This document shows, in pieces, positions 2,053-60,217 of a stretch of 64,000 nucleotides of DNA. Below the pieces are notes generated by a model. That model saw only the letters and a program-made list of their open reading frames with translations, searched no databases and was not told the origin of the DNA. Source of the DNA: Sanderia malayensis (taxonomy: Eukaryota > Cnidaria > Scyphozoa > Semaeostomeae > Pelagiidae); assembly GCA_013076295.1 (NCBI GenBank), contig RQOL01000562.1, forward strand, positions 10,001 to 74,000. The letters are read 5' to 3'. Within the stretch, counting starts at the first letter, position 1; the number at the start of each line of letters is the position of its first letter. The position numbers and the translations under genes were made by a program.

Positions 2053-3487
2053 TCTATATACTAATCTACGTCGACACGTGACCCGCCGACTCTAAACAAT
2101 GGTCTATTGTTTCTTGAACAATCGACGTTCGACCAATGGGATCAAAGGAATTTCGTTGTGATCAAAAAGGCTTTTTTCCTGGGGGTCAATAAGGGTGCAA
2201 ATTGGTATCAAAATGATCGCTGCATTGCGCTGATCACAGTAAAGCTTTCCGCTAAGTTCTACTCCAAACGGTTCGGGAGTTATGGCCCATTTTGTGTTCC
2301 GACTTTCTAGAAAGTTCCGAGGACGGAGTTAATGAGATGCAAAACGAGCAAGGAGAAGCACGTGTTTTTTTAGTTGAACGGGCGGCAAGTTGCTCGGATT
2401 TAAACGTGAATACGTGCCGGAAATCAATTGTAAAGACGTGTCAATTGTTGTCAAGACCTGTGGAGACAATTGGTGAACAATTATTTCAAGGTATTTCCTT
2501 TATTCAATTGTTTTTGGCTTTAAATAGCACGAGTTTTGTTTGTTTAGCCTCACGTTTCTTTCGGCTCGAGGGCCTAACCAAAACACGAAGACAATTTTGA
2601 TTTTCTCGGGTCGTTCTGGGCCGATTTTCTCCATTTAAACTTTCGATAACTGTTATTTACACAAGAACTAAAGTTATATGGCTTTGTTTTTTTTGTTTTG
2701 TTGATTTTCCTCTGTTTTTGGACAGTTTTCGCCGAGATTTGGTTTTGCTGGAAAACACGAAATTTTCACGCAACACGCGTGTGCATTCGCGAAAATTAAA
2801 TTTTAACCTGCCAAAACTTTGTTTTTTTCACCCAAATACTTTCGATAAATGCTCGCCAAGCTATTAGCTTCATGTTGATATTTTCGTGGGGTGTGTAGGA
2901 CAAAAATTGGCCACGTTAATTTAATTTGAAACTTGGTGAATCGTGTTTGAAATGCTATTTTTTGCAAGGGTTTGATTTCACGGCTATTTAAATCATGTCT
3001 TGGACTTCAAAAATTTACAACTAAAATTGCGAAAAGCTTTTCATATGCACCCAAGTACTTTCGATATTTATTTGCCAAGGTATTAGCTTCATGCTGGTGT
3101 AATTTGAGTTCAAATGGACAAATTTTGACCAAGTTAGGGGAATTTTTGTGTTCTTAAAGTTGGCTGATGAACAAATTTTTTCACGGCTTTTGTGTTGGGC
3201 TGCACTAAATACTCTCTTAAAATTCAAAACAACACTGTTAAGAAATGTGAATATATTTATCGGATTCGCTGTTTCCTTAGCTACAGTTTTGATATATTTT
3301 TTATTACAGATTGAGTTTAAATTTTCCAAGATTGATTTAATTTTTGAAGGCAACTTTTTTTTTCAAACTTCACACTGAAGCTAGCAACTATCGAAGCGGC
3401 TTTCAGGGGGGCAGCGTGGGCGCGGGGCCTTGGCAGGGGGGAAGATTTGACCTCCCACCTTTCCGTTCTTTAGAAATGTTGCGTCGA

Positions 3488-4160
3488 AGTATGTATTGTA
3501 GGGTATGTATTGTAGGGTATGTTTTGTAGGGTATGTATTGTAGGGTTTGTATTGTAGGGTATGTATTGTATGGTATGTATTGTAGGGTATGTATGTAGGG
3601 TATGTATTGTAGGGTATGTATTGTAAGGTATGTAGTGTAGGGTATGTATTGTAGGTATGTATTGTAGGGTATGTATTGTAGGGTATGTATTGTAGGGTAT
3701 GTATTGTAGGGTATGTTATGTAGGGTATGTATTGTATGTTATAGGGTATGTATTGTAGGGTATGTATTGTAGGGTATGTATTGTAAGGTTAAGGTATGTA
3801 TCGTAGGGTATGTATTGTAGGGTATGTATTGTAGGGTATGTATTGTAAGGTATGTATTGTAAGGTATGTATTGTAAGGTATGTATTGTAGGGTATGTATT
3901 GTATGGTATGTATTGTAGGGTATGTATTGTAAGGTATGTATTGTAAGGTATGTATCGTAGGGTATGTATTGTAGGGTATGTATTGTAGGGTATGTATTGT
4001 AGGGTATGTATTGTAGGGTATGTTATGTAGGGTATGTATTGTAGGGTATGTTTTGTAGGGTATGTATTGTAGGGTATGTATTGTAGGGTATGTTATGTAG
4101 GGTATGTATTTTAGGGTATGTATTGTAGGGTATTATTGTAGGGTATGTATTGTAGGGTAT
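3488..4160 (+). repeat. 14-bp minisatellite of element 1
   Basis: GGGTATGTATTGTA tandem repeat with AGGTATGTATTGTA and GGGTATGTTATGTA variants. It passes directly into (ATGT)n at its right end. Confidence 0.9.
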
Positions 4161-4347
4161 GTATGTATGTATGTATGTATGTATGTATGGGCATGAGCGG
4201 CAGCGAATGCAGCGCGCGAAGCGCGTCAACCAGATTAAGCTTTGTTTACTTGACGGGCTCCGGGGAGCGCGCGAAGCGCGTCAACCAGATTAAGCTTTGT
4301 TTACTTGACGGGCTCCGGGGAGGGAGCGAAGCGACCGAACCCGGCTC

Positions 4348-4490
4348 ATGTATGTATGTATGTATGTATGTATGTATGTATGTATGTATGTATGTATGTA
4401 TGTATGTATGTATGTATGTATGTATGTATGTATGTATGTATGTAGGTATGTATGTATGTATGTATGTATGTATGTATGTATGTATGTATG
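4348..4490 (+). repeat. (ATGT)n microsatellite
   Basis: About 36 tetranucleotide copies with a single GTAGGTA interruption, lying between two terminal modules of element 1. Open frames over it (MYVC or HTYI repeats) are artefacts. Confidence 0.95.
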
Positions 4491-4593
4491 GGCATGAGCG
4501 GGAGCGAATGCAGCGCGCGAAGCGCGCCAACCACATTAAACTTTTGTTGCTTCGGGGCTCCGGGAAGCGAGCGAAGCGAGTGCCCCCGGCTAG

Positions 4594-7366
4594 TCTATAT
4601 ATACTAATCTACGTCGACACGTGACCCGCCGACTGTGAACAATCGCCATTGTCTTTTGAACAATCGACGTTCGAACAAACAATGGGATCAAAGGAATTTC
4701 GTTGTGATCAAAAAGGCTTTTTTCCTGGTCAATAAGGGTGCAAAATGGTACCAAAATGATCGCTGCATTCCGCTGATCACAGTAAAAGCTTTCCGCTAAT
4801 TTCTACTCCAAACGGTTCGGGAGTTATGGCCCATTTTGTGTCCGTCTTTCTAGAAAGTTCCGAGGAGGCAGTTAATGAGATGCAAAACGAGCAGGGAGAA
4901 GCACGTGTTTTTTTGGTTGAACGGGCGGCAAGTTGCCCGGGTTTAAACATGAATAGGTGCCGGAAATCAATTGTAAAGACGTGTCAATTGTTGTCAAGAC
5001 CTGTGGAGACAATTGGTGAACAATAATTTCAAGGTATTTCCTTTATTCAATTGTTTTTGGCTGAAAATAGCACGAGTTTTGTTTTGTTTAACCTCACGTT
5101 TTTCTTTCGGCTCGAGGGCCTAACCAAAGTTTTGATTTTCTCGGGTCCTTCTGGGCCGATTTTGTCCATTTAAGCTTTCGATAACTGTTTATTTAGACAA
5201 GAACTAAAGTTATATGGCTTTGTTTTTTTTGTTTTGTTGATTTTCCTTTGTTTATGGACAGTTTTAGCCGAGATTTGGTTTTGCTGGAAAACACGAAATT
5301 TTCAAGCAACACGCGTGTGTTTTGCATTGGCGAAAATTAATTTTTTACCTGCCAAAATTTTGTTTTTTTCACCCAAATACTTTCGATAAATGTTCGCCAA
5401 GCTATTAGCTTCATTTTGATATTTTCGTGGGTTCTGTAGGACAAAAATTGGACACGCTAATTGAATTTGAAAGTTGGTGAATCGTGTTTGAAATGCTATT
5501 TTTTGCACGGGTTTGATTTCAGGGCAATTTTTGATCAACAAAATCATGTCTTGGACTTCAAAATGTACAACTAAAATTGCGAAAAGCTTTTCAAATGCAC
5601 CCAATTACTTTCGATACTTATTCGCCAAGGTATCAGCTTCGTGCTGGTGTAATTTGAGTTAAAATGGACAAATTTTGACCAAGTTAGGGGAGTTTTTGTG
5701 TTTTTAAAGTTGGCTGATGAATAAATTTTTCCACGGCTTTTGTGTTAGGCTGCACTAAATACTCTCTTAAAATTCAAAACAAAACTGTTAAGAAATGTGA
5801 ATATATTTATCGGATTCGCTGCTTCCTTAGCTACAGTTTGATATACTTTTTATTACAGATTGAGTTTAAATTTTCCAAGATTGATTAAAATTTTGAAGGC
5901 AACTTTTTTTTTCAAACTTCACACTGAAGCTATCAACCTTCGGCTTTCAGGGGGGCGGCGTGGGCGCGGGGCGGTCGCATGGCAGGGGGGGAAGATTCGA
6001 CCTCCCACCTCTACATTCTTTATAAATGTTGCGTTGTGTGTATTGTAGGGAATGTATAGTAGGGTATGTTATGTAGGTTATGTATTGTAGGGTATGTATT
6101 GTCGGGTATGTATTGTAGGGTATGTATTGTAGGGTATGTATTGTAGGGTATGTATTTTAGGGTATGTATTGTAGGGTATGTATTGTAAGGTATGTACGGT
6201 AGGGTATGTATTGTAGGGTATGTATTGTAAGGTATGTATTGTAGGATATGTATTGTAAGGTATGTATGGTAGGGTATGTATTGTAGGGTATGTATTGTAG
6301 GGTATGTTATATAGGGTATGTATAGTAGGGTAGGTATTGTAGGGTATGTATTGTAAGGTATGTATTGCAGGGTATGTATTGTAGGGTATGTATTGTAGGG
6401 TATGTATTTTAGGGTATGTATTGTAGGGTATGTATTGTAAGGTATGTATGGTAGGGTATGTATTGTAGGGTATGTATTGTAAGGTATGTATTGTAGGGTA
6501 TGTATTGTAAGGTATGTATGGTAGGGTATGTATTGTAGGGTATGTATTGTAGGGTATGTATGTAGGGTATGTATTGTAGGGTATGTATTGTAGGGTATGT
6601 ACTGTAGGGTTTGTATTGTAGGGTATGTATTGTAGGGTATGTATTGTAGGGTATGTATTGTAGGGTATGTATTGTAGGGTATGTATTGTAGGGTATGTAT
6701 TGTAGGGTTTGTATTGTAGGGTATGTATTGTAGGGTATGTATTGTAGGGTATGTATTGTAGGGTATGTATTGTAGGGTATGTTATGGGGTATGTATTGTA
6801 GGGTATGTATTGTAGGGTATGTATTGTAGGGTATGTATCGTAGGGTATGTATTGTAGGGTATGTTATGTAGGGTATGTATTGTAGGGTATGTATGAATGT
6901 ATGTATGGGCATGAGCGGTAGCGAATGCAGCGCGCGAAGCGCGCCAACCAGATTAAGCTTTATCTACTTGACGGGCTCCGGGGAGGGAGCGAAGCGACCG
7001 AACCCGGCCCATGTATGTATGTATGTATGTATGTATGTAGGTATGTAGGTATGTATGTATGTAGGTATGTATATATGTATGTATGTATGTATGGGCATGA
7101 GCGGGAGCGAATGCAGCGCGCGAAGCGCGCCAACCAGATTAAGCTTTGTTTACTTGACGGGCTCCGGGGAGGGAGCGAAGCGACCGAACCCGGCCCATGT
7201 ATGTATGTATGTATGTATGTATGTATGTATGTAGGTATGTATGTATGTATGTATGTATGTATGGGCATGAGCGGGAGCGAATGCAGCGCGCGAAGCGCGC
7301 CAACCACATTAAGCTTTTGTTGCTTGGGGGCTCCGGGAAGCGAGCGAAGCGAGTGCCCCCGGCTAG
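4594..7366 (+). mobile_element. Helitron-like element 2 (type A)
   Basis: It starts TCTATATATACTAATCTACG immediately after the CTAG of element 1 and ends CCCCCGGCTAG at 7366. The A body (4594 to about 6038) is collinear with element 1. Three terminal modules are present, at about 6907, 7093 and 7264, separated by (ATGT)n tracts with GTAGG variants. The last module carries the terminal CTAG. Confidence 0.75.
6039..6893 (+). repeat. 14-bp minisatellite of element 2
   Basis: Tandem GGGTATGTATTGTA, about 60 units, with variants GGTATGTATGGTA and GGGTTTGTATTGTA. Confidence 0.9.
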
Positions 7367-8847
7367 TCTATATATAATAAAATGTGATCACACGTGACCC
7401 GCCGACTCTAAACAATGACATATTGTTTCTTGAACAATCACCATTGTCTTTTGAACAATCGACGTTCTACCAAACAATGGGATCAAAGGGATTTCGTTGT
7501 AATCAAAAAGGCTTTTTTCCTGGGGGTCAATAAGGGTGCAAATTGGTATCAAAATGATCGCTGCATTGTGCTGATGACAGTAAAGTATGTGGCTAATTTC
7601 TACTCCAAGCGGTTCGGGAGTTATGGCCCATTTTGTGTTCCGACTTTCTAGAAAGTTCCGAGGACCGAGTTAATGAGATGCAAAACGAGCAGGGAGAAGC
7701 ACGTGTTTTTTTAGTTGAACGGGCGGCAAGTTGCTCAGATTTAAACGTGAATACGTGCCGGAAATCAATTGTAAAGACATGTCAATTGTTCTCAGGACCT
7801 GTGGAGACAAAGTGTGGACAATTATTTCAAGGTATTTCTTTTATTTCATTGTTTTTGGCTGAAAATAGCACGAGTTTTGTTTTGTTTAACCTCACGTTTT
7901 TCTTTCGGCTCGAAGGCCTAACCAAAACAGGAAGACAATTTTGATTTTCTCGGTCGTTCTAGCCGATTTTCTCCATTTAAACTTTCGATAACTGTTTATT
8001 TACACAAGAACTAAAGTTATCTGGCTTTGTTTTTTTTTTTGATTTTCCTCTGTTTTTGGACAGTTTTAGCCGAGTTTGGATTTTGCTGGAAAACACGAAA
8101 TTTTCAAGCAACACGCGTGTGTTTTGCATTTGCAAAAATCATTTTTTAACCTGCCAAAACTTTGTTTTTTCACCAAAATACTTTCGATAAATGTTCGCCA
8201 AGCTATTAGCTTCATGTTGATATATTCGTGGGTTCTGTAGGACAAAAATTGGCCACGTTAATTTAATTTGAAACTTGGTGAATCGTGTTTGAAATGATAT
8301 TTTTTGCAGGGGTTTGATTTCACTGCCAATTTTGGTCAAGAAATCATGTCTTGGACTTCAAAAATTTACAACTAAAATTGCGAAAAGCTTTTTCATATGC
8401 ACCCAAATACTTTCGATATTTATTTGCCAAGGTATTAGCTTCATGCTGCTGTAATTTGAGTTCAAATGGACAAATTTTGACCAAGTTAGGGGAATTTTTG
8501 TGTTCTTAAAGTTGGCTGATGAATAAATTTTTTCACGGCTTTTGTGTTGGGCTGCACTAAATACTCTCTTAAAATTCAAAACAACACTGTTAAGAAATCT
8601 GAATATATTTATCGGATTCGCTGTTTCCTTAGCTACAGTTTGATATATTTTTTATTACAGATTGAGTTTAAACTTTCCAGGATTGATTAAATTTTTGAAG
8701 GCAACTTTTTTTTTCAAACTTCACACTGAAGCTATCAACTTTTGAAGCGGCTTTCAGGGGGCGGCAGCGTGGGCGCGGGGCGATCGCATGGCAGGGGGGA
8801 AGATTCGACCTCCCACCTTTACTTTCTTTAGAAATGTGGCGTCGTGT

Positions 8848-10236
8848 GTATTGTAGGGTATGTATTGTAGGGTATGTATCGTTGGGTATGTATTGTAGGT
8901 ATGTATTGTATTGTATGTATTGTAGGGTATGTATTGTAGGGTATGTATTGTAGGTATGTATTGTAAGGTATGTATCGTAGGGTATGTATCGTAGGGTATG
9001 TATCGTAGGGTATGTATTCTAAGGTATATATTGTAAGGTATGTATTGTAGGGTATGTATTGTAAGGTATGTATCGTAGGGTATGTATCGTAGGGTATGTA
9101 TTCTAAGGTATGTATTGTAAGGTATGTATTGTAAGGTATGTATTGTAAGGTATGTATTGTAGGGTATGTATTGTAGGGTATGTATTGTAAAGTATGTATT
9201 GTATAGGTATGTATTGTAAGGTATGTATCGTAGGGTATGTATTGTAGGGTATGTATTGTAAGGTATGTATTTTAGGGTATGTATTGTAGGGTATGTATTG
9301 TAGGGTATGTATTGTAGGGTATGTATTGTAAGGTATGTATTGTAGGGTATGTATTGTAGGGTATGTATTGTAAAGTATGTATTGTAAGGTATGTATGGTA
9401 TGTATCGTAGGGTATGTAGTAGGGTATGTATTGTAAGGTATGTATTTTAGGGTATGTATTGTAGGGTATGTAATGTAGGGTATGTATTGTAGGGTATGTA
9501 TTGTAGAGGTATGTATTCGTAGGGTATGTTATGTAGGGTATGTATTGTAGGGTATGTATTGTAGGGTATGTTATGTAGGGTATGTATTGTAGGGTATGTA
9601 TTGTAAGGTATGTATTGTAGGGTATGTATTGTAGGGTTTGTATTGTAGGGTTTGTATTGTAGGGTATGTATTGTAGGGTATGTATTGTAGGGTATGTATA
9701 GTGGGTATAGTAGGGTATGTATTGTAAGGTATGTATCGTAGGGTATGTATTGTAGGGTATGTATTGTAGGGTATGTATTGTAGGGTATGTATTGTAGGGT
9801 ATGTATTGTAGGGTATGTATTATAGGGTATTATGTAGGGTATGTATTGTAGGGTATGTATTGTAGGGTATGTATTGTAGGCTATGTATCGTAGGGTATGT
9901 ATTGTAGGGTATGTATTGTAGGGTATGTTATGTAGGCTATGTATCGTAAGGTATGTATTGTAGGGTATGTATTGTAGGGTATGTATTGTAGGGTATGTAT
10001 TGTAGGGTATGTATTGTAGGGTATGTATTGTAGGGTATGTATTGTAGGGTATGTATTGTAGGGTATGTATTGTAGGGTATGTTATGTAGGGTATGTATTG
10101 TAGGGTATGTATCGTAGGGTATGTATTGTAGGGTATGTATTGTAGGGTATGTATTGTAGGCTATGTATTGTAGGGTATGTTATGTAGGGTATGTATTGTA
10201 GGGTATGTATCGTAGGGTATGTATTGTAGGGTATGT
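8848..10236 (+). repeat. 14-bp minisatellite of element 3 (longest)
   Basis: About 1.39 kb, close to 100 units of GGGTATGTATTGTA. It includes ...TATCGTA units and repeated higher-order blocks of variants, for example the TATCGTAGGG/TATTCTAAGG series around 8960-9110. Confidence 0.9.
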
Positions 10237-10365
10237 ATGTATGTATGTATGTATGTATGTATGGGCATGAGCGGTAGCGAATGCAGCGCGCGAAGCGCGC
10301 CAACCAGATTAAGCTTTATTTACTTGACGGGCTCCGGGGAGGGAGCGAAGCGACCGAACCCGGCT

Positions 10366-10525
10366 CATGTATGTATGTATGTATGTATGTATGTATGTAT
10401 GTATGTATGTATGTATGTATGTATGTATGTATGTATGTATGTATGTATGTATGTATGTATGTATGTATGTATGTATGTATGTATGTATGTATGTATGTAT
10501 GTATGTATGTATGTATGTATGTATG
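10366..10525 (+). repeat. Perfect (ATGT)40 microsatellite
   Basis: 160 bp of uninterrupted ATGT between the CCCGGCTC of one terminal module and the GGGCATGAGCG of the next. It is the longest pure tract in the window, which suggests recent expansion. Confidence 0.97.
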
Positions 10526-10547
10526 GGCATGAGCGGGAGCGAATGCA

Positions 10548-10562
10548 GCGCGCGAAGCGCGC
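10548..10562. repeat. Perfect GC hairpin (example of terminal module)
   Basis: GCGCGC-GAA-GCGCGC, a 6-bp perfect stem with a 3-base loop. The same hairpin, or a base-paired variant of it, lies at the same place in nearly every terminal module of the array. Confidence 0.85.
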
Positions 10563-11427
10563 CAACCACATTAAGCTTTTGTCGCTTGGGGGGCTCCGGG
10601 GAGGGAGCGAAGCGACCGGGCCCCCGGCTAGTAATCATAAAATTGTACATCACGTGACCGGCCGACGTGAACAATGGGCTATTGTTTCTTGAACAATGGA
10701 CGTTCGAAAAACAATGGGATCAAAGGAGCGGGCTTTGCCAGTCAAAGGCTTTTTTTCTGGCGGTCAATAAGGGTGCAAATTGGTATCAAAATGATCGCTG
10801 CATTGTGCTGATGAAACTAAAGTTTTCCGCTAATTTCTAACCCCAGCGGTCGAGAGTATGGCCCATTTTGTGTTCCGACTTCTAGAAAGTTCCGAGGACC
10901 GAGTTAATAGATGCAAAACGAGCAGGGAGAAGCACGTGTTTTTTTCGTTGAAGGGGCGGCAAGTTGCTCGGGTTTAAACGTGAATACCTGCTGGAAATCA
11001 ATTGTAAAGACGTGTCAATTGTTGTCAAGACCTGTGGAGACAATTGGTGGACAATTATTTCAAGGTATTTCCTTTATTCCATTGTTTTTTGCTTTAAATA
11101 GCACGAGTTTTGTTTTGTTTCACCTCACGTTTTTCTTTCGGCTCGAGGGCCTAACGAAAACGTGAAGACAATTTTGATTTTCTTGGGTCGTTCTGGGCCG
11201 ATTTTCTCCATTTAAACTTTCGATAAGTGTTTATTTACACGAGATCTAAAGTTATCTGGCTTTGTTTTTTTTTGTGTTGTCGATTTCCCTCTGATTTTGG
11301 ACAATTTTGGCCGAGTTTGCATTTTGCTGGAAAACACGAAATTTGCATGCAACACGCGTGTGTTTCGCATTCGTGAAAATTAAATTTTAACCTGGCAAAA
11401 CTTTGTTTTTTTCGCCCAAATACTTTC

Positions 11428-11985
11428 ACCAACATTGAAAGTACCCTACAATACATACCCTACAATACATACCCTACATAACATACCCTACAATACATAC
11501 CCTAAATAACATACCCTACATAACATACCCTACGATACATACCCTACAATACATACCCTACAATTCATACAATGTGTAGACATTGATACATGGCATTACA
11601 TATTAACATTAACATACTTACTATAGATACTATACATAAATATATACATCAATACATACCCAATATACTATATATAAATATTATACATAATATACATACC
11701 TTACATACATAGCCTACATACATACATACATACATACATACATACCCTACATACATACCCTACATACATACATACATACATACATACATACATACATACA
11801 TGAGCCGGGGAGGGAGCGAAGCGACCGAGCATTGTAAGTGGGGTGGAAAGGGGCATGAGCATCAGCGAATGCAGCGCACGTCTGCATGTTCATCTACCTG
11901 ATCAGCAGAGCGTATACTTTAAGGATAATGGAAGGGTCGAACAATTACAAAACATCAATGAAAAAATGTCATTGAATAGTGTCAT
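11428..11985 (-). repeat. Inverted minisatellite/(ATGT)n block inserted in element 4
   Basis: At 11442 the sequence becomes (TACAATACATACCC)n, the reverse complement of the array minisatellite. A degenerate AT-rich stretch (about 11570-11700) and (CATA)n to about 11800 follow. Then TGAGCCGGGG, an inverted terminal end, meets a forward GAGGGAGCGAAGCGACC. Unrecognised filler (about 11880-11985) precedes the return of the A body. It replaces roughly 17 bp of body sequence. This is the only reverse-oriented piece of the array. Confidence 0.8.
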
Positions 11986-12627
11986 AGCTATTAGCTTCAT
12001 GTTGATTTTTTCATGGGGTGTGTAGGACAAAAATTGGCCACGTTAATTTAATTTGAAAGTTGGTGGATCGTGTTTTAAATGCTATTTTCTTCACGGGTTT
12101 GATTTCAGAGCTATTTTTGATCAACAAAATCATGTCTTGGACTTCAAAAATATACAACTAAAATTGCGAAAAGCATTTCAAATGCACCCAATTACTTTCG
12201 ATACTTATTTGCCAAGGTATCAGCTTCATGTCGGTGTAATTTGAGTTAAAATGGACAAAGTTTGACCAAGTTAGGGGAATTTTTGTGTTTTTAAAGTTGG
12301 CTGATGAATAAATTTTTTCACGGCTTTTGTCTTGGGCTGCACTAAATATTCGCTTAAAATTCAAAACAACAATGTTAAGAAATGTGAATATTTTTATCGG
12401 ATTCGCTGTTTTCGTAGCTACAGTTTGATATAATTTTTATTAGAGATTGAGCTTAAATTTTCCAGGATTGATTAAATTTTTGAAGGCAACTTTTTTTTCA
12501 AACTTCACACTGAAGCTATCAACCTTCAGCTTTCAGGGGGGCGGCAGGTTGGGCGCTGGGCGGTCGTTTGCCAGGGGGGAAGATCCGACCTCCCACCTTT
12601 ACTTTCTTTAGAAATGTTGCGTCGTAG

Positions 12628-13668
12628 TATGTATTGTAGGGTATGTATTGTAGGGTATTTATTGTAGGGTATTTATTGTAGGGTATTTATTGTAGGGTAT
12701 GTATTGTAGGGTATTTATTGTAGGGTTTGTATTGTAGGGTTTGTATTGTAGGTTATGTATTGTAGGGTATGTATTGTAGGGTATGTATTGTAGGGTATGT
12801 ATTGTAGGGTATTTATTGTAAGGTATGTATTGTAGGGTATGTATTGTAAGGTATGTATAGGGTATGTAATGTAGGGTATGTATTGCAGGGTATGTATTGT
12901 AAGGCATGTATTGTAGGGTATGTATTGTAAGGTATGTATTGTAGGGTATGTTTGTAGGGTATGTATTGTAGGGTATGTATTGTAGGGTATGTATTGTAGG
13001 GTCTGTATTGTAAGGTATGTATTATAGGGTATGTAATGTCGGGTATGTATTGTGGGGTATGTATTGTAAGGTATGTATTGTAGGGTATGTATTGTAGGGT
13101 GTGTATTGTAGGGTATGTATTGTAGGGTATATATTGTAGGGTATTTATTATAGGGTATGTATTGTAGGGTATTTATTGTAGGGTATTTATTCTAGAGTAT
13201 GTATTGTAGGGTATTTATTGTAGGGTGTGTAATATGGGATATGTATTGTAGGGTATGTATTGTAGGGTATGTATTGTATGTAATGTAAGATATGTATTGT
13301 AGGGTATGTATTGTAGGGTATTTATTGTGGGGTATGTATTGTAAGGTATGTATTGTAGGGTATGTATTGTAGGGTATGTATTGTAGGGTATGTATTGTAG
13401 GGTATATATTGTAGGGTATGTATTGTAAGGTATGTATTGTAGGGTATTTATTATAGGGTATGTATTGTAGGGTATTTATTGCAGGGTATTTATTCTAGAG
13501 TATGTATTGTAGGGTATTTATTGTAGGGTGTGTATTGTGGGATATGTATTGTAGGGTATGTATTGTAGGGTATGTATTGTAGGTATGTTTGTAGGGTATG
13601 TATTGTAGGGTATGTATTGTAGGGTATATGCAGGGATGTATTGTAAGGTATGTATTGTAAGGTATGTA
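12628..13668 (+). repeat. 14-bp minisatellite of element 4
   Basis: GGGTATGTATTGTA units rich in the GGGTATTTATTGTA variant. A partly duplicated block recurs around 13120-13250 and 13430-13550, showing local duplication of several units at once. Confidence 0.9.
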
Positions 13669-13816
13669 TGTATGATTGTATGTATGTAGGTATGTAGGTA
13701 TGTATGTATGGGCATGAGCGGGAGCAAATGCAGCGCGCGAAACGCGCCAAACACATTAAGCTTTTGTTGCTTGGGGGGCTCCGGGGAGGGAGCGTAGCGA
13801 CCGGGCCCCCGGCTAG

Positions 13817-47784: not shown

Positions 47785-48159
47785 ATGTATGTATGTATGA
47801 ATGGACATGAGCGGTAGCGAGTGCAGCACGCGTAGCGCGCCAACCAGATTAAGCATTCTTTACTTGACGGGCTCCAGGGAGGGAGCAAAGCGACCGAACC
47901 CGGCTCATGTTTGTATGTATGTATGTATGTATGTATGTATGTATGTATGTATGTAGGTATGTATGTATGTATTTATGTATGTATGGGCATGAGCGGGAGC
48001 GAATGTAGCGTGCGAAGCCCGCCAACCAGATTAAGCATTGTTTACTTGACGGGCTCCGGAGAGGGAGCGAAGCGATCGAACCCGGCTCATGTATGTATGT
48101 ATGTATGTATGTATGTATGTATGTATGTGTGTATGTAGGTATGTATGTATGTATGTATG

Positions 48160-48587
48160 GGAAATGCAATGCAGCGCACAAAGTGCGCCAGCCACAGGCG
48201 AGCGTAGCGACCTAACCCATTGTAGGTGGGGTTGAAAGGGGCATGAGCGTAAGCGAAAGCAGCGCACGGAGTGCGCCAACCACAGGCGAGCGCAGCGAGC
48301 TAACCCATTGTAGGTTGGGTTCAAAGGGGCATGAGCGGAAGCGAATGCAGCGCATGAAGTGCGCCAACCACAGGCGAGTGCAGCTAGCTAACTCATTGTA
48401 CGTGGGGTTGAAAGAGGCATGAGTGTAAGCGAATGCAGCGCACGAAGTGCAACATATCTGTCAATGTTTCTTGATAATAGATAGACAGGAGAGCGCAGCG
48501 AGCTAACCCATTGTACGTGGGTTTGAAAGAGGCATGAGTGTAAGCGAATGCAGCGCATGAAGCGCGCCAACCACAGGCGAGCGCAGC
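48160..48587 (+). repeat. 88-bp hairpin-bearing repeats of element 16
   Basis: Same block as in elements 7, 12 and 14. Confidence 0.87.
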
Positions 48588-49001
48588 GGGGGAGTTGGTT
48601 TTTTTTAGTTCAACTGGGTCACTATTTGCCACGGTAAATACTATTTTTACTTGCTAAAGTGTGTTCAGAGGTTTTGCTTTTTGCACGCTCCGAAATTCCA
48701 TTCAAACCACTTCCACTAAAATGTCTCTAAGAATTCAGTATTATTTAGTTAAGAGATGAGACTATTTGCAACGTGTTCGCTGTTTCCTTAGCTACAGATA
48801 TATTTTTTATTACAGATTGAGTTTATAATTTCCAGGATGGGTGAAGTTTTTGAAAGTAACTATATTTTTTTCAAACTTCACACTGAAATTATCAACTTTC
48901 AGAAACGGATTAGAGGGAGCAGCGTTGGTGCGGGCTGTAGCTTGCTAGGGGAGAAGATTTGACGTTCCACCTTTACTTTCTTTAGAAATGTACGTCGTAG
49001 T

Positions 49002-49620
49002 ATGTATAGTAAGATATGTATAGTAGGGTATTTATAGTAGGGTATGCATAGTAGGGTATGTATAGTAGGGTATGTATTGCAGGTATGTATAGTAGGTATG
49101 TATAAGGGAGTATAGGTATGTATAGTAGTATGTATTGTAGGGTATGTATTGTAGGGTATGTATTGTGGGGTATGTCTTGAGGGTAAGTCTTTCTCTTGTA
49201 TGTATTGTAGGGTATGTATTGTAGGATATGTATTGTAGGGTATGTATTGTAGGATATGTATTGTAGGGTATGTATTGTAGGGTAGGTATTGTAGGGTATG
49301 TATTGTAGGGTAGGTATTGTAGGGTATGTATTGTAGGGTATGTATTGTGGGTATGTATTGTAGGGTATGTATTGTAGGGTATGTTATGTAGAGTATGTAT
49401 TGTAGGGTATGTATTGTAGGGTATGTATTGTAGGGTATGTATTGTAGGGTATTTATTGAAGGATATGTATTGTAGGGTATGTATTGTGGGGTATGTATTG
49501 TAGGGTATGTATTGTAGGGCATATGTTGTAGGGTATGTATTGTAGGGTATGTATTGTAGGATATGTATTGTAGGGTATGTATTATAGGGTATGTATTGTA
49601 GGGTATGTATTGTAGGGTGT
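49002..49620 (+). repeat. Second and third minisatellites of element 16
   Basis: Two tracts, 49002 to about 49180 and 49199-49620, are split by GGGTAAGTCTTTCTCTTG. The first is ragged around 49080-49130. The second is regular and runs into (ATGT)n at about 49620-49711. Confidence 0.85.
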
Positions 49621-51363
49621 GTATGTAGTATGTATGTATGTATGTATGTATGTAGTATGTATGTATGTATGTATGTATGTATGTATGTATGTATGTATCT
49701 ATGTATGTATGGGCATGAGCGGTAGCGAATGCAGCGCACGAAATGTGCCAACCACAGGCGAGCACAGCGAGTTAACCCATTGCACGTGGGGTTGAAAGAG
49801 GCATGAGCGTTAGCGAATGCAGCGCACGAAGTGCGCCAACCACATTAAGTCTTTCTCACTTGCCCCCCTCCGGGAAACGAGCGTACATGAGCGCCCCTCG
49901 GCAAGTCTATATATACTATTCTACGATCACACGTGACCCGCCGACTGTGAACAATGCCATTGTCTTTTGAACAATCGACGTTCGACCGAACAATGGGATC
50001 AAAGGAATTTCGTTGTGATCAAAAAGGCTTTTTTCCTGGGGGTCAATAAGGGTGCAAATTGGTATCAAAATGATCGCCGCATTGCGCTGATCACAGTAAA
50101 GCTTTCCGCTAATTTCTACTCCAAACGGTTCGGGAGTTATGGCCCATTTTGTGTTCCGACTTTCTAGAAAGTTCCGAGGACGGAGTTAATGAGATGCAAA
50201 ACGAGCAAGGAGAAGCACGTGTCTTTTTAGTTGAACGGGCGGCAACTTGCTCGGGTTTAACCACGAATACGTGCCGGAAATGAATTGTAAAGACGTGTCA
50301 ATTGTTGTCAGGACCTGTGGAGACAATTGGTGAACAATTATTTCAAGGTATTTCCTTTATTCAATTGTTTTTGGCTTTAAATAGCACGAGTTTTGTTTTG
50401 TTTCACCTCACGTTTTTCTTTCGGCTCGAGGGTCTAACCAAAAGACGAACACAATTTTGATTTTCTCGGGTCGTTCTGGGCCGATTTTCTCCATTTAAAC
50501 TTTCGACAACTGTTTATTGACACAATAACTAAAGTTATATGGCATTGTTTTTTTTGTTTTGTTGATTTTCCTCTGTTTTTGGACAGTTTTAGCCGAGTTT
50601 GGATTTTGCTGAAAAACACGAAGTTCAAGCAACACGCGTGTGTTTTGCATTTGCGAAAATTAATTTTTAACCTGCCAAAACTTTGTTTTTTTCACCCAAA
50701 TACTTTCGATAAATGTTCGCCAAGCTATTAGCTTCATGTTGATATTTTCGTGGGGTGTGTAGGACAAAAATTGGCCACGTTAATTTAATTTGAAAGTTGG
50801 TGAATCGTGTTTTAAATGCAATTTTTTTCACGGGTTTGATTTCAGGGCTGTTTTTGATCAACAAAATCATGTCTTGGACATCAAAAATGTACAACTAAAA
50901 TTGCGAAAAGCATTTCAAATGCACCCAAGTACTTTCGATACTTATTCGCCAAGGTATCAGTTCCCTGTTGGTGTAATTTGAGTTAAAATGGACAAATTTT
51001 GACCAAGTTAGGGGAAATTTTGTGTTTTTAAAGTTGGCTGATGAATAAATTTTTTCACCACTTTTGTGTTGGGCTGCACTAAATACTCTCTTAAAATTCA
51101 TAACGACACTGTTAAGAAATGTGAATATATTTATCGGATTCGCTGTTTCCTTAGCTACAGTTTGATATATTTTTTATTAGAGATTGAGTTTAAATTTTCC
51201 AAGATTGATTAAATTTTTGAAGACAACTTTTTTTTTCAATCTTCACACTGAAGCTATCAACCTTCGGCTTTCAGGGGGGTGCCAGGGTGGGCGCTGGGCG
51301 GTCGATTGCCAGGGGGAGGATCCGACCTCCCACCTTTACTTTCTTTAGAAATGTTGCGTCGTA

Positions 51364-51910
51364 GTATTTATTGTAGGTTATTTATTGTAGGGTATGTATT
51401 GTAGGGTATGTGTTGTAAGGTATGTATTGTAGGGTATTATTGTAAGGTATGTATTGTAGGGTATGTAATGTAGGGTATGTATTGTAGGGTTTGTATTGTA
51501 GGGTATGTATTGTAGGGTTTGTATTGTAGGGTATGTTATGTAGGGTATGTATTGTAGGGTATGTATTGTAGGGTATGCATAGTGGGGTATGTATTGTAAG
51601 GTATGTATTGTAGGGTATGTATTGTAGGGTATCTATTGTAGGGTATGTATTGTAGGGTATGTATTGCAGGGTATGTTATGTAGGGTATGTATTGTAGGGT
51701 ATGTATTGTGGGGTATGTTTTGTAGGGTATGTGTTGTATTGTATGTATTGTAGGTTATGTATTGTAGGGTATGTATTGTAGGGTATGTATTGTAGGGTAT
51801 GTATTGTAGGGTATGTATTGTAGGGTATGTATTGTGGGGTATGTATTGTAGGGTATGTGTTGTATTGTATGTATTGTAGGGTATGTATTGTAGGATATGC
51901 ATTGTAGGGT
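51364..51910 (+). repeat. 14-bp minisatellite of element 17
   Basis: Copy of the element 6 tract with one- or two-base differences. Confidence 0.9.
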
Positions 51911-52099
51911 ATGTATGTATGTATGTATGAATGGACATGAGCGGTAGCGAATGCAGCATGCGTAGCGCGCCAACCAGATTAAGCATTCTTTACTTAACGG
52001 GCTCCGGGGAGGGAGCGAAGCGACGGAACCCGGCTCATGTATGTATGTATGTATGTATGTATGTGTGTATGTAGGTATGTAGGTATGTATGTATGTATG

Positions 52100-52606
52100 G
52101 GAAATGCAATGCAGCGCACAAAGTGCGCCAGCCACAGGCGAGCGCAGCGAGCTAACCAATTGTAGGTGGGGTTGAAAGGGACATGAGCGGAAGCGAATGC
52201 AGCGCCTGAAGTGCACCCTATCTGTCAATGTTTCTTGATAATAGATAGACAGGTGAGCGCAGCGAGCTAATCCATTTTAGGTGGTGTTCAAAGGGGCATG
52301 AGCGGGAGCGAATGCAGTGCACGAAGTGTGCCAACCACAGGCGAGCGCAGCGAGTTAACCCATTGTACGTGGGGTTGAAAGAGGCATGAACGTTAGCGAA
52401 TGCAGCGCACGAAGTGCGCCAACCACAGGCGAGTGCAGCTAGCTAACTCATTGTACGTGGGGTTGAAAGAGGCATGAGCGTAAGCAAATGCAGCGCACGA
52501 AGTGCCCCAACCACAGGCGAGCGCAGCGAGCTTACCCATTGTCTGTGGGGTTGAAAGGGGCATGAGCGGTAGCCAATGCATCGCACGAAGTGCGCCAACC
52601 ACATTA
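52100..52606 (+). repeat. 88-bp hairpin-bearing repeats of element 17
   Basis: Copy of 18480-18986 with the same 88-bp spacing. Confidence 0.87.
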
Positions 52607-52664
52607 AGTCTTTCTCACTTGCCCCTCTCCGGGAAACGAGCGTATGCGAGCGCCCCCCGGCTAG

Positions 52665-55491
52665 TCTAATATTACTATTCTGCGATGTCACGTGACGGTG
52701 GCGAAACTCTGCCTAAAACAATAGATTCGACCCGAAACAATAGGCCGAATGCCCAAAAACAATGTGCCGAAACAGCGAATCGGTGAGCAATAAGGCTTTT
52801 TTGAATGGGGTCGCAAAAGGTTGAGACTTGCATGGAAAGGCTCCATTTCTAGAGTAGGTAAAAGTTATCTATTTTTGGAAGCATATTTAAAAGGATTCAT
52901 GATTTATTCCATTAATTGTTCCACTAATTGTGCTATCACGAAAAAACGACGGTTTACGCTGGCGAAACTTCCAAATTAGCGTCCCCAACTCCATTTTCGA
53001 AAAGAGTACACGCTCTTCACATGATCCGTTTCGCCTTTTCTTGCAATTTGATTGGCTCTTTCGTGACTTCACGTGAAAAGTCACGCGTTTTTCGTTATCA
53101 TGCAAATTAGCCCTCGGGTTGAACAGCAGGTACTTTTGGAGAAGACACGTGTTTTTGTTTTGTACACAAAAAGTGAGGTGGGCGCCTTTTAAAGTGTTTT
53201 ACCAGCTGAACTATCTTTGTAAAGAGCTCTTAATTGTTTGAAACACCCCTGGAGAGTTGCAGGAAACAATGGAGAACACAGGTGATAGCTTTGTTTTTTT
53301 TTAATGGAATAGTTGTAGGTTTTTTTGCAGTAGGCGACCGCCATTGTTCCTTCGGCATGCTAACAACGTTTAGGCAATGGTCAAAATTTTGAATTTTTCG
53401 GCCGTATTTGCACGATTTTCCCCATTTAAATTTTTGACAAGTGCTGTCTGATAACACAACTAAAATAAAGTGTTTTTTTTTTGTTTTTTTTGTTGTTTTT
53501 TACGAGTTCCAACAAAGTTGCTTTTCACTCGGGAAGGAACAATTTTTCACGCAACACGCGTTGTTTTTGCATTTGCGAAAATTCAATTTTAGCCTGCCAC
53601 AATTAATTATTTTTTACCCAAACATTTTTGATAATTGTTCCCCAACATATTACCTTCATGTTGGTTTTTTTTTAGTTCAACTGGGTCACTATTTGCCACA
53701 GTAAATACTATTTTTACTTGCTAAAGTGTGTTCACAGGTTTTACTTTTTGCAGGGCTCCGAAATTTCATTCAAACCACTTCCACTAAATGGTCTCTAAGA
53801 ATTCAGTATTATTTGGTTAAGAGATGAGACTATTTGCAACGTGTTCGCTGTTTCCTTAGCTACAGTTTGATATATTTTTTATTACAGATTGAGTCTAAAA
53901 TTTCCAGGATGGGTTAGGTTCTTGAAAGTAACTATTTTTTTCAAACTTCACACTGAAATTATCAACTTTCAGAAACGGCTTTCAGGGAGCAGCGTGGGCG
54001 CGGGGCTGTAGCTTGCTAGGAGGGAAGATTTGACCTCCCACCTTTACTTTCTTTAGAAATGTTACGTCGTAGTGTGTATAGTAAGGTATGTATAGTAGGG
54101 TATGTATTGTAGGGTAGGTATTGTAGGGTATGTATTGTAGGGTATGTATTGTCGGGTATGTATTGTAGGGTATGTATTGTAGGGTATGTTATGTAGGGTA
54201 TGTATTGTAGGGTATGTATTGTGGGGTATGTATTGTAGGGTATGTATTGTAGGGTATGTATTGTAGGGTATGTGTTGTAGGGTATGTATTGTGGGGTATG
54301 TATTGTAGGGTATGTATTGTAGGGTATGTATTGTGGGGTATGTATTGTAGGGTATGTATTGTAGGGTATGTGTTGTATTGTATGTATTGTAGGGTATGTA
54401 TTGTAGGATATGTATTGTAGGGTATGTATTGTAGGGTATGTATTGTAGGGTATGTAATGTAGGGTATGTATTGTGGGGTATGTATTGTAGGGTATGTGTT
54501 GTAGGGTATGTATTGTAGGGTATGTATTGTAGGGTATGTATTGTAGGGTATGTAATGTAGGGTATGTATTGTGGGGTATGTATTGTAGGATATGTATTGT
54601 AGGGTATGTATTGTAGGGTATGTATTGTAGGGTATGTATTGTAGGGTGTGTATTGTAGGGTATGTATTGTAGGGTATGTATTATAGGGTATGTAATGTAG
54701 GGTATGTATTGTGGGGTATGTTTGTAGGGTATGTGTTGTATTGTATGCATTGTAGGGTATGTATTGTAGGATATGCATTGTAAGGTATGTATGTGTGTAT
54801 GTATGAATGGACATGAGCGGTAGCGAGTGCAGCACGCGTAGCGCGCCAACCAGATTAAGCATTCTTTACTTGACGGGCTCCAGGGAGGGAGCAAAGCGAC
54901 CGAACCCGGCTCATGTTTGTATGTATGTATGTATGTATGTATGTATGTATGTATGTATGTAGGTATGTATGTATGTATGTATGTATGTATGGGCATGAGC
55001 GGGAGCGAATGTAGCGTGCGAAGCGCGCCAACCAGATTAAGCATTGTTTACTTGACGGGCTCCGGAGAGGGAGCGAAGTGACCGAACCCGGCTCATGTAT
55101 GTATGTATGTATGTATGTATGTGTGTATGTAGGTATCTATGTATGTATGTATGGGAAATGCAATGCAGCGCACAAAGTGCGTCAGCCACAGGCGAGCGTA
55201 GCGACCTAACCGAAGTGTGCCCTATCTGTCAATGTTTCTTGATAATGGATAGACAGGCGAGCGCAGCGAGCTAAGCCATTGTACGTGGGGTTGAAAGAGG
55301 CATGAGCGTAAGCGAATGCAGCGCAAGAAGTGCGCCAACCACAGGCGAGCGCGGCGAGCTTACCCATTGTACGTGGGGTTGAAAGGGGCATGAGCGGTAG
55401 CCAATGCAGCGCACGAAGTGGGCCAGCCACATTAAGTTTTTCTCATTTGCCCCCTCCGGGAAACGAGCGTACGCGAGTGCCCCCCGGCTAG
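52665..55491 (+). mobile_element. Helitron-like element 18 (type B; HOR period 4)
   Basis: It starts TCTAATATTACTATTCTGCG; octamer ATGCAAAT at 53100-53107. Its body copies element 7 (offset about 33.6 kb), while its minisatellite and modules (54070 to about 55150) resemble elements 14/16. The 88-bp block is short, and the unit ends in a proper CCCCCGGCTAG at 55491 without the truncated second body, so the composite is not obligatory. Confidence 0.78.
54070..54790 (+). repeat. 14-bp minisatellite of element 18
   Basis: The left portion matches element 7 and the right portion element 14, another mosaic. Confidence 0.88.
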
Positions 55492-57910
55492 TCTAATATT
55501 ACTATTCTGTGATGTCACGTGACGGTGGCGAAACTCTGCCAAAAACAATAAATTCGACCCGAAACAATAGGTCGAACGCCCAAAAACAATGGGCCGAAAC
55601 GGCGAATCGGTGATCAATAAGGCTTTTTTGAATGGGGTCGCAAAAGGTTGAGACTTGCATGGAAAGGCCCCATTTCTAGAGTAGGCAAAAGTTATCTATT
55701 TTTGGAAGCCTATTTTAAAAGGATTTATGATTTATTCCATTAATTGTTCCACTAATTGTGCTATCACGAAAAAACGACGGTTTACGCTGGTGAAACTTCC
55801 AAATTAGCGTCCCCAACTCCATTTTCGAAAAGAGTAGTCGCTCTTCACGTGATCCGTTTCACCTTTTCCTGCAATTTGATTGGCTCTTTCGTGACTTCAC
55901 GTGAAAAGTCACGCGTTTTTTGTTATCATGCAAATTAGCCCTCGGGTTGAACAGCAGGTACTTTTGGAAACAACGTGTGTTTTTGTTTTATACACAAAAA
56001 GTGGGGTGGGCGCGTTTCAAAGTGTTTTACCAGCTGAACTATCTTTGTAAAGAGCTCTTAATTGTTTGAAAGACCCCTGGAGAGTTGCAGGAAACAATGG
56101 AGAACACAGGTGATAGCTTTGTTTTTTTTTAATGGAATAGTTGTAGGTTTTGTTGCAGTAGGCGACCGCCATTGTTCCTTCGGCATGCTAACAAAGTTTA
56201 GGCCAATGTTCAAAATTTTGAATTTTTCCGGCCCTATTTGCACGATTTTCCCCATTTAAATTTTTGACAAGTGCTGTCCGATAACACAACTAAAATAAAG
56301 TGTTGTTTTTTTTGTTTTTTTGTTGTTTTTTTACGAGTTCCAACAAAGTTGCTTTTCACTTGGGAAGCAACAATTTTTCACGCAACACGCGTTGTTTTTG
56401 CTTTTGCGAAAATTCAATTTTAGCCTGCCACAATTGATTATTTTTTACCCAAACATTTTCGATAATTGTTTCCCAACATATTACCTTCATGTTGGTTTTT
56501 TTTTAGTTCAACTGGGTCACTATTTGCCATGGTAAATACTATTTTTACTTGCTTAAGTGTGTTCACAGGTTTTGCTTTTTGCAGGGCTCCGAAATTTCAT
56601 TCAAACCACTTCCACAAAATGGTCTCTAAGAATTCAGTATTATTTGGTTAAGAGATGAGACTATTTGCAACGTGTTCGCTGTTTCCTTAGCTACAGTTTG
56701 ATATATTTTTTATTACAGATTGAGTCTAAAATTTCCAGGATGGGTTAGGTTCTTGAAAGTAACTATTTTTTTCAAACTTCACAGTGAAATTATGAACTTT
56801 CAGAAACGGCTTTCAGGGAGCAGTGTGGGCGCGGGGCTGTAGCTTGCTAGGGGGGAAGATTTGACCTCCCACCTTTACTTTCTTTAGAAATATTACGTCG
56901 TAGTATGTATAGTAAGGTATGTATAGTAGGGTATTTATAGTAGGTTATTTATAGTAGGGTATGTATTGTAGGGTATGTATTGTAGGGTGTGTATTGTAGG
57001 GTATGTATTGTGGGGTATGTATTGTAGGGTATGTGTTGTATTGTATGTATTGTAGGGTATGTATTGTAGGGTATGTATTGTAGGGTATGTATTGTAGGGT
57101 ATGTTATGTAGGGTACGTATTGTAGGGTATGTATTGTGGGGTATGTATTGTGGGGTATGTATTGTAGGGTATGTATTGTAGGGTATGTATTGTAGGGTAT
57201 GTATTGTAGGGTATGTGTTGTATTGTATGTATTGTAGGGTATGTTTTGTAGGGTAGGTATTGTAGGGTAGGTAGTGTAGGGTATGTATTGTAGGGTATGT
57301 ATTGTAGGGTATGTATTGTAGGTTATGTATTGTAGGGTATGTATTGTAGGGTATGTATTGTGGGGTATGTATTGTAGGGTATGTATTGTAGGGTATGTAT
57401 TGTAGGGTATGTATTGTAGGCTATCTATTGTAGGGTATGTATTGTAGGTTATGTATTGTAGGGTATGTATTGTAGGATATGTATTGTAGGGTATGTATTG
57501 TTGGGTATGTATTGTAGGGTATGTATTGTAGGGTATGTATTGTAGGATATGTATTGTAGGGTATGTATTGTAGGGTATGTATTGCAGGCTATTTATTGTA
57601 GGGTATGTATTGTAGGGTATGTATTGTAGGGTATGTATTGTAGGATATGTATTGTAGGGTATGTATTGTTGGGTATGTATTGTAGGGTATGTATTGTAGG
57701 GTATGTATTGTAGGATATGTATTGTAGGGTATGTATTGTAGGGTATCTATGTAGTATCTTTGTATGTATGTATGTATGTATGTATGTATGTATGTATGTA
57801 TGTATGGGCATGAGCGGCAGTGACTGCAGCGCGCGAAGCGCGCCAGCCAGATTAAGCATTGTTTACTTGACGGGCTGGGGCGAACGAGCGAAGCGAGTGA
57901 TGACCCCTAG
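55492..57910 (+). mobile_element. Helitron-like element 19 (type B, alternative 3' end)
   Basis: It starts TCTAATATTACTATTCTGTG; octamer at 55928-55935. B body to about 56902, minisatellite (56903 to about 57745), (ATGT)n, one terminal module and the GGCTGGGGCGAACGAGCG...GACCCCTAG end at 57910, as in element 9. It has no 88-bp repeats. B follows B here, ending the A-B alternation. Confidence 0.78.
56903..57745 (+). repeat. 14-bp minisatellite of element 19
   Basis: About 60 units; a block containing GTTGGGTATG and GTAGGATATG occurs twice about 165-170 bp apart. Confidence 0.9.
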
Positions 57911-59025
57911 TCTAATATTACTATTCTGAGGAGGTCACGTGATGACGCACTTTCTTGCCAAAAACAATAGATTCAACCCGAAACAATAGGTCGAACGCCT
58001 CAAAACAATGGGCCAAGACGGCGAACCGTGTAATCACAAAGGCTTTTTTGTATGTGGATATATGGCAATGAAATTCACACTGAATGCTTAGTTTATTAAA
58101 TTAACAAGGGTAATGGATTTTGTTTTTCGATTTTCTCCCAAATTATTGAATTATTCCACTAATTATTCTGCTAATTGTGCTGTCAGGAAAAAACGACGGT
58201 TTACGCTGGCGAAAATTCCAAATTCGCGTCCTGAACTCCATTTTCGAACACACTGTTCGCTCTTCGCGTGACCCGACTTGCCTTTTGCTGTAATTTGATT
58301 GGCTCATTCGCGACTTCACGTGAACAGTCACGCATATTTCATTATCATGCAAATTTGCCCTCGGCTTCAACAGCAGGTAGTTTTGGAGAAGACGCATGTT
58401 TTTGTTTTGAACACAAAGGATAACTCGGGGCCTTTCAAAGTGTTTTACGACCTGAATTATCTTTGTAAAGACTTGCTAATTGTTTGAGAGACCTCTGGAA
58501 TATTACAGGAAACAATTGAGAACACAGGTGTTAGCTTTGTTTTGTTTTTGAGTAGGATAGTTGTAGTTTAGGTAATAAGTGACCGCCATTGTTGCTTCGG
58601 CATGCTTGCGACGCTTAGGCCTAATGTAAACAAGCCCAAAGTTTTAATAAACAAATTATGATAAGGAGTTATCAGGCGAGCGAAGCGAGCCAAACTGTTG
58701 CAAGAGGAGTAGGCAGAGGCATGAGCGAAGTGAATGCAGCGCACGAAGTGCGCCCTATCAGCTAATGTTTCTTGGTAATAGATAGAGAGGCGAGCGCAGC
58801 GAGCTAACCCATTGTACGTGGGGTTGAAAGAGGCATGAGCGAAGCGAATGCAGCGCAAGAAGTGCGCCAACCACAGAGGCGAGCGCAGCGAGCTAACTCA
58901 TTGTATGTGGGGTTGAAAGGGGCATGAGCATAGGCGAATGCAGCGCATGAAGTGCACCAACCACATTAAGTTTTTTTCACTTGCCCCCCTCCGGGAAGCG
59001 AGGGAACCCGAGCACCCCCGGCTAG
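57911..59025 (+). mobile_element. Helitron-like element 20 (type C, no minisatellite)
   Basis: It starts TCTAATATTACTATTCTGAG, followed by GTCACGTGATGACGCAC. The first ~700 bp is B-like, with ATTGG (58298-58302), TTCACGTGAA (58315-58324) and ATGCAAAT (58347-58354). It then joins GCGAGCGAAGCGAGCC and three to four 88-bp-type repeats (58672-58970). It ends CACCCCCGGCTAG at 59025. At 1115 bp it lacks the middle body, minisatellite and (ATGT)n. Confidence 0.76.
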
Positions 59026-60217
59026 TCTAATATTACTATTATGCGGAGGTCACGTGATGACGCACTTTCTTGCCAAAAACAATAGATTCGACCCGAAACA
59101 ATAGGTTGAACGCCCCAAAACAATGGGCCAAAACGGCGAACCGTGTAATCACAAAGGCTTTTTTGTATGTGGGTTTTTGACAATGAAATTCGCACTGAAT
59201 GTTTAGTTTATTAATTTAACCAGGCTAATGGATTTTGTTTTTCGATTTTCTCCCAAAGAATTGAATTATTCCATTAATTATTCTGCTAATTGTGCTATCA
59301 CGAAAAAACGAAGGTTTACGCTGGCGAAACTTCCAAATTCGCATCCCGAACTCCATTTTCGAACAGAGTGTTCGCTCTTCACGTGACCCGTTTCGCCTTT
59401 TCCTGTAATTTGATTGGCTCTTTGGCGACTTCACGTGAACAGTCACACGTTTTTCATTATCATGCAAATTTGCCCCCGGGTTGAACAGCAGGTAGTCTTG
59501 GGGAAGACGAATGTTTTTGTTTTGCACACAAAGGATAACTGGATGCCTTTCAAAGTGTTTTACGACCTGAATTATGTTTGTAAAGACTTGTTAATTGTTT
59601 GAGAGACCTCTGGCAAAATACAGGAAGCAATAGAGAACACAGGTGATAGCTTTTTTTTGCTTTTCTTTTAGTGAGATAGTTGTAGTTTTCGTAGTATGCG
59701 ACCGCCATTGTTGCTTCGGCATACTTGCGACGTTTAGGACTAATGTAAACAAGCCCAACGTTTTAATAAACAAGTTATGATAAGGGATTATCAGGCAAGC
59801 GGAGCGAGCCAAACTGTTGTATGAGGAGTAGGCAGAGGCATGAGCGGAAGCGAACGCAGCGCACGAAGTGCGCCAACAACAGGTGAGCAGAGCAGTTTAC
59901 CGATTGTAGGTGGGTTTTAAAGGGGCATGAGCGTGAGCGAATGCGGCGCACGAAGTGTGGCAACCACAGAGGTGCGCGTAGCGAGCTAACCCATTGCACC
60001 TGAGGTTGCAAGGGGCATGAGCGGGAGCGATTTCAGCCCACGAAGTGTGCCAACGACAGAGGCGAGCGTAGCGAGCTAACCCATTGCACATGAGGTTGCA
60101 AAGGGCATGAGAGGGAGCGAATGCTGCGCACGAAGTGCACCAACCACAGAGGCGAGCACAGCGAGCTTACCCATTGTAGGTGGGATTTAAAGGGGCATGA
60201 GCGTGAGCGAATGCAGG
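58672..60217 (+). repeat. 88-bp-type repeats of type C elements (two blocks)
   Basis: Blocks at 58672-58970 and 59782-60217 carry GCGCAC-GAA-GTGCGC hairpins and GCGAGCG(C/T)AGCGAGC motifs. They are separated by the 5' half of element 21 (59026-59781), which is not repeat. Confidence 0.75.
59026..60217 (+). mobile_element. Helitron-like element 21 (type C), 3' end missing; right end of array
   Basis: It starts TCTAATATTACTATTATGCG; ATTGG, TTCACGTGAA (59430-59439) and ATGCAAAT (59462-59469) are kept. 88-bp-type repeats (59782-60217) are more diverged than elsewhere (AGGTGCGCGTAGCGAG, CACCTGAGGTTGC). The last unit stops at AGCGAATGCAGG and passes into unrelated sequence, with no terminal hairpin or CTAG. 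Confidence 0.72.

Follow-up and report, generated by a model that had tools for sequence, protein, structure and literature searches.

Tandem Helitron arrays are usually ascribed to rolling-circle concatemers. The array considered here lies in a stretch of 64,000 nucleotides from the jellyfish Sanderia malayensis (GenBank assembly GCA_013076295.1, contig RQOL01000562.1, positions 10,001 to 74,000; the whole stretch is called the window below), in which 21 non-autonomous Helitrons follow one another head to tail in a single orientation from position 2053 to position 60217 and adjoin to the base. The bat elements Helibat and Helraiser resemble the elements of the array in having 5'-TC and CTAG-3' ends, A^T insertion sites, no target duplication and a RepHel protein (PMC4778049). 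Helraiser insertions favour A^T where AT-rich DNA follows in the 3' direction, with other dinucleotides in 46 of 1,751 mapped insertions, and bat Helitron copies abutting 5' end to 3' end have been described with empty-site evidence (PMC4778049). Here, unlike in bats, abutment is the normal state of half the exact 5' ends, and the rows comprise more than 20 copies, several families and satellites on the kilobase scale.

Tandem Helitron arrays are known in plants as well as in bats (PMC5876387), and the centromeric tandem Helitrons of plants (Xiong et al. 2016, cited in PMC12628747) likewise form arrays of several to hundreds of repeats. The plant arrays are described as consisting of truncated copies, in which many 5' ends go with a single 3' end (PMC12628747), whereas most copies in the jellyfish array keep both ends, although a separate locus of this genome (L083, discussed below) is plant-like. 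Self-insertion beside or within a 5' end, short 5' duplications and a tandem of three copies are features that the Helitrons of Fusarium and Metarhizium have in common with the present case, but those elements have Helitron2-type ends, and the jellyfish arrays are far longer and of mixed families (PMC5148889). The DINE-1 and Helentron-derived satellites of flies and oysters are also rolling-circle elements with internal satellites that form arrays, but the jellyfish elements do not as a rule have Helentron ends or T^T sites. In the open-licence literature searched, no description of long, seamless arrays of mixed Helitron families came to light, which is weak evidence of absence. An earlier note on this DNA, made from the letters alone, had called the arrangement unusual; that judgement stands for a long seamless array of mixed families, but not for abutting or tandem Helitrons as such, given their occurrence in bats, plants and fungi. 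The presence of hundreds of exact joints, some between different families, makes the rival origins of such arrays separable by sequence and population data.

Structure of the array and identity of its elements

The 5' end TCTA(TATA/ATAT)TACTATTCT occurs 14 times exactly on the forward strand and never on the reverse strand of the whole 64-kb window, and one further copy has a single mismatch. Once diverged 5' ends, located with 90-bp probes, are added, there are 21 element starts between 2053 and 59026, the same number as the earlier note had claimed, and the element lengths range from 1.1 to 4.2 kb. Precise abutment at almost every junction, which had also been claimed, was found as well: a GC-rich 3' end stands directly before 20 of the 21 starts, reading GGCTAG at 14 of them, GGCAAG at four (starts 22640, 36974, 43155 and 49906) and CCCTAG at two (28156 and 57911). 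The sole exception is start 16278, which is preceded by CTCATAG at the edge of a broken Pif1 helicase gene. In keeping with the 5'-TC and CTRR-3' ends of canonical Helitrons, TC is present at 20 of the 21 starts as aligned (start 10632 reads TAAT), and the 20 joints with a Helitron 3' end carry CTAG in 16 cases and CAAG in four. As for the limits of the array, the proposed interval (2053-60217) does hold 21 copies, but a truncated family A copy occupies positions 1-2052, so that the array continues past the left edge of the window, and no CTAG end was found near 60217 for the last copy. The window contains a run of 100 N at about 15172-15271.

The same joint recurs throughout the host assembly (184 Mb in 918 contigs). 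Among 649 occurrences of the 17-bp 5' end, 329 are directly preceded by CTAG, compared with 0 for the reversed control pattern, which excludes chance. A full GC-rich 3' end was recognized by eye before the joint in all 30 of the 329 joints that were fetched (loci L002-L031). For a further 245 of the 5' ends the preceding base is not G and the final pattern position is G, and 30 of these were likewise examined (loci L032-L061). Among the first 100 of the 649 listed 5' ends, neighbours less than 8 kb apart lie on one strand in 32 of 34 pairs, or in 20 of 22 pairs when the second array, on contig C45, is left out.

The identity of the array elements as Helitrons is secure. Eight loci were tried for complete solitary copies, and the six that were readable (886-1323 bp) have the same ends as the array elements, with no target duplication beyond one base (0-1 base common to the flanks) and no terminal inverted repeats; the 30 bp of the 5' end matched the reversed 30 bp of the 3' end no better than did shuffles (0.25-0.94 of which reach the score). 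RepHel proteins are encoded in the genome. The expectation that isolated copies sit between A and T was borne out for four of the six solitary copies, the other two lying between T and T. The base before the 5' ends in loci L032-L061 is A in 28 of 32 cases, T in three and G in one, with one site counted twice where loci overlap. For the 16 loosely matched 3' ends in the same loci, the next base is T in 13 and C in three, the last three being putative ends. Helentrons and Helitron2 elements have asymmetric terminal inverted repeats and T^T sites; the elements examined here give no inverted-repeat signal between their ends, and T stands on both sides of two of the six solitary copies, against A and T for the other four. 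The 5' ends of families A and B are 70-75% AT over 20 bases. At the 3' end, a terminal hairpin, as described in the earlier note, is plausible: the arms next to CTAG are GC-rich and partly complementary, but in none of the four end types is the fold better than in dinucleotide shuffles (z -0.03, -1.35, 0.62 and 1.06). No match at the gathering score was obtained from Rfam.

The first 1.1 kb sorts the 21 copies, numbered e1 to e21 along the array, into three families: A, with 13 members (e1-e6, e8-e11, e13, e15 and e17), B, with six (e7, e12, e14, e16, e18 and e19), and C, with two (e20 and e21). Core identity is 51-59% between A and B, 43-45% between A and C, and 66-67% between B and C; e4 and e5 belong to A but have diverged from it (74-85%). 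Over the first 17 bases, the 5' ends of A differ from those of B and C only at the four variable ones. The 5' termini of the B and C copies, such as that at 19045, contain TAATATTAC, the origin motif of geminivirus-like replicons; because family A has TATATATAC there and the region is AT-rich, the motif is given no weight, and its presence in the B and C termini is probably due to chance. Long runs of a 14-bp satellite and of ATGT lie inside the A and B copies. A 3'-end module is also present in 15 internal copies (at 1844, 4337, 10356, 18406, 21293, 21475, 35629, 35807, 41810, 41988, 47896, 48078, 52026, 54902 and 55084), which end in GAACCCGGCTCATG in place of GGCTAG and look like disabled 3' ends retained within elements. 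Maize Helitrons similarly carry extra, mutated 3' ends inside elements as a result of nesting, but in the accessible part of that account a long tandem array is not described (PMC3288121).

Origin of the joints and growth of the array

The explanation preferred here, to which an even chance is given, is that the array grew by stepwise joining of elements to resident 5' ends, followed by exchange between repeats, more than by the self-copying of one element. The three non-autonomous families have the first 17 bp and a set of 3'-end types in common. At most joints, the CTAG end of an incoming element would have been joined to the TC of a resident, and the incoming element's own TC to the base before. 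The common terminus would allow the families to join one another, and the use of one fixed end of each partner would make all copies point the same way. Some copies would have entered a resident 5' end four bases in from its start (TCTA^TATATAC). The A-B pairs would later have been multiplied by unequal exchange between repeats, and one such pair or more may have moved as a composite element.

Footprints of such landings are present in the genome. CTAG followed by TATATACTATTCT, the right side of an insertion at TCTA^TATATAC in a resident A copy, occurs 12 times, compared with 0 at two other A^T positions, and the four of these 12 that were read have a full 3' end before the point and A-type 5' sequence after it over 50 bases (over 1.5 kb in locus L089). 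TCTA followed by a full 5' end, the left side of such insertions, occurs 13 times. Taken together, the right-side and left-side footprints indicate that copies do insert into resident 5' ends.

Exchange between repeats is indicated by the recent dimer repeats, which mostly break inside elements. For the seven longest repeat blocks in the window (3.3-5.3 kb, 96.0-99.3%), the right limits lie inside elements in seven of seven cases and the left limits in four, the remaining three left limits falling at a 5' terminus or 10-11 bases before one. The repeat of e6-e7 in e17-e18 (98.4% over 5.3 kb) begins at a terminus, the left flanks being unlike each other (23 of 60 bases), and this A-B pair may have moved as one composite element. 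A second array, at 1347000-1382000 of contig C45 (loci L012-L017, L089 and L093-L095), consists of A'-B' pairs with a 4.3-kb period and 13 exact 5' ends; six pieces of it are 96.7-100% alike, and a footprint of CTAG followed by TATATACTATTCT stands at 1348590. Both ends of the C45 array break inside B', at +1375 and +1373, near the point where the satellite begins in B, so that the right limit may only mark satellite divergence.

The earlier note had proposed failed termination of rolling-circle replication. On such an account the transposase would pass the 3' end, go round the circle again and insert several copies of one element at once, and the families would be mixed later by recombination. 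This origin is possible, though on the unlikely side. The joint of a circle, CTAG followed by TC, is exactly the joint observed, and precise circles are known for Helraiser (PMC5876387). On contig C303 (locus L083, 474-1240), three 5' ends recur at a spacing of 255 bp, with a joint of ATTAATTA followed directly by TCTAATATTAC, and resemble the truncated arrays of plants, which have been put down to rolling circles (PMC12628747). The arrays of this genome are the product of more than a single process. Concatemers are, however, difficult to reconcile with the variety of the joints. When the 30 fetched joints and 20 joints of the window (the Pif1 joint left out) were clustered at 96% over 540 or more of 600 bp, the 50 joints formed 39 clusters. 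The four 3'-end types pair with families A, B and C in eight combinations, and each family stands behind more than one 3'-end type. Nor are neighbours generally more alike than other copies: mean identity is 74.1% for adjacent cores of all 21 copies and 71.8% in shuffled order (P 0.27), for the last 60 bp it is 77.0% and 77.8%, respectively (P 0.62; e5 and e21 left out), and within family A it is 89.1% for the eight neighbour pairs compared with 90.9% for the full set of 78 pairs. Rolling-circle arrays are expected to have neighbours that derive from one element, and the mixed families and the family A neighbours, which are no closer than other pairs, do not fit this picture. The internal breaks of the near-identical dimer repeats also tell against it. 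Failed termination is thus not borne out for most joints, but the locus with repeated 5' ends and the clustering of families described next make concatemers possible in places.

Several observations count against joining to resident 5' ends. Since the A-B block duplications bias the neighbour test, e13-e18 were dropped, after which adjacent cores average 80.4%, against 70.6% in shuffled order (P 0.012), so that neighbours are more often of the same family and families cluster, as concatemers would have it; the corresponding values for the 3' ends are 79.3% and 76.9% (P 0.21). The neighbours e1-e2, e8-e9 and e18-e19 are 95% alike, and concatemers would give the same. The acceptor site inside the array would be G^T, not A^T. 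Joint counts are inflated and not independent, because duplication copies joints. The boundary joint (329) far outnumbers the inner site (12), so that AT-richness alone is insufficient and stepwise joining has to postulate a specific acceptor step. Neither an empty site nor a dated pair came out of the analysis. On contig C25, L032 and L036 were compared with the paralogous L034 as a before-and-after case for one and two abutting copies, and the case was rejected: the left flank and first copy are common to these sites, the right flanks differ, and no order of insertion followed. A study of self-insertion and tandem copies in fungi leaves the same two explanations open (PMC5148889).

The acceptor step that stepwise joining calls for could take the form of a resident 5' terminus that is bound and nicked by the transposase and joined to an incoming CTAG of whatever family, with cassette-like growth in one orientation. 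This more specific proposal is doubtful and is put forward tentatively. If it is true, Helitrons themselves provide a preferred landing site. This would account for arrays locked in one orientation and for one route from transposon to satellite DNA, and a self-directed, site-specific mode of Helitron insertion would build satellite-bearing arrays.

It is improbable that one or a few ancestral joints were multiplied by unequal crossing-over and gene conversion only. The 3-5 kb blocks at 96-99% in the window and the near-identical pieces of the C45 dimer array are what this explanation would predict, and it accounts for growth, but not for the variety of joints, since the 39 clusters among 50 joints are found on many contigs and insertion footprints are present. 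Stacking by the assembler of copies from different places is very improbable, given that the joint is present 329 times in the assembly, contigs of 1.8 and 5.9 Mb included, and with diverse sequence on both sides, even though the window has a 100-N gap and near-identical blocks in e12-e16 and several of the contigs with arrays are as short as about 25 kb.

RepHel proteins and the course of the array

Helitron_like_N gave 150 scored matches among 1077 candidates, and none in 14 control genomes. One RepHel copy (locus L084) combines Helitron_like_N and PIF1 in one open frame. The helicase fragment of the window (15272-16277, forward strand; PIF1 E 2.7e-43), which derives from the gene of an autonomous Helitron and is cut at CTCATAG, is 95.2% identical to L084 over 1007 bp, and 39 other scored copies match it only as far as 16278-16279. 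Its best species-named relatives are from hagfish (62% identity) and jellyfish (59%). The later part of the helicase gene was not found in the window by blastn with L084. The joint reads CTCATAG followed by TCTATATA, where an intact copy reads CTCATAGTTCGG, and may represent a cryptic 3' end or an insertion at G^T. A second, smaller trace of such a gene lies in e4, where 89 bp at 11878-11966 are 97.8% identical to part of the RepHel gene of L084. The ends of L084 were not found in 9.5 kb. By eye, an A-type 5' end is followed by Rep after 5.7-6.0 kb on contigs C76, C102 and C121 and after 8.5 kb on C67, a hint that the autonomous element carries these ends. To judge from the sequences, the array elements were probably moved by RepHel proteins encoded in the genome.

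Along the window, with all features on the forward strand, the copy cut by the left edge (e0, family A, 1-2052) ends in GGCTAG, and its positions 3-1757 match e10 from +424 at 96.2%. It is followed by a run of family A copies: e1 (2053-4593), with a diverged 5' end, e2 (4594-7366), e3 (7367-10631), with a variant 5' end, and e4 (10632-13816), whose variant 5' end is TAATCATAAAAT and which contains the RepHel-like 89 bp. The stretch assigned tentatively to e5 (13817-16277) has a family A start up to the N gap and then the helicase fragment, the two pieces being split by the gap, and e6 (16278-19044) is a family A copy with an h-type 3' end. The first family B copy, e7 (19045-22639), ends in GGCAAG and precedes four further family A copies, namely e8 (22640-25352), e9 (25353-28155), which ends in CCCTAG, e10 (28156-31184), with a variant 5' end, and e11 (31185-33794). 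From there the two families alternate, with the B copies e12 (33795-36973), e14 (39566-43154) and e16 (45671-49905) all ending in GGCAAG and the A copies e13 (36974-39565), e15 (43155-45670) and e17 (49906-52664) following them; e17, together with the B copy e18 (52665-55491), repeats e6-e7. The last family B copy, e19 (55492-57910), ends in CCCTAG and is followed by the two family C copies, e20 (57911-59025) and e21 (59026-60217), the latter with one mismatch in the 5' motif and no CTAG end. Beyond the array, no Pfam family was found in 63387-63998, and the start of a LINE-like open frame with an endonuclease-like motif was judged by eye to lie at 63400-64000.

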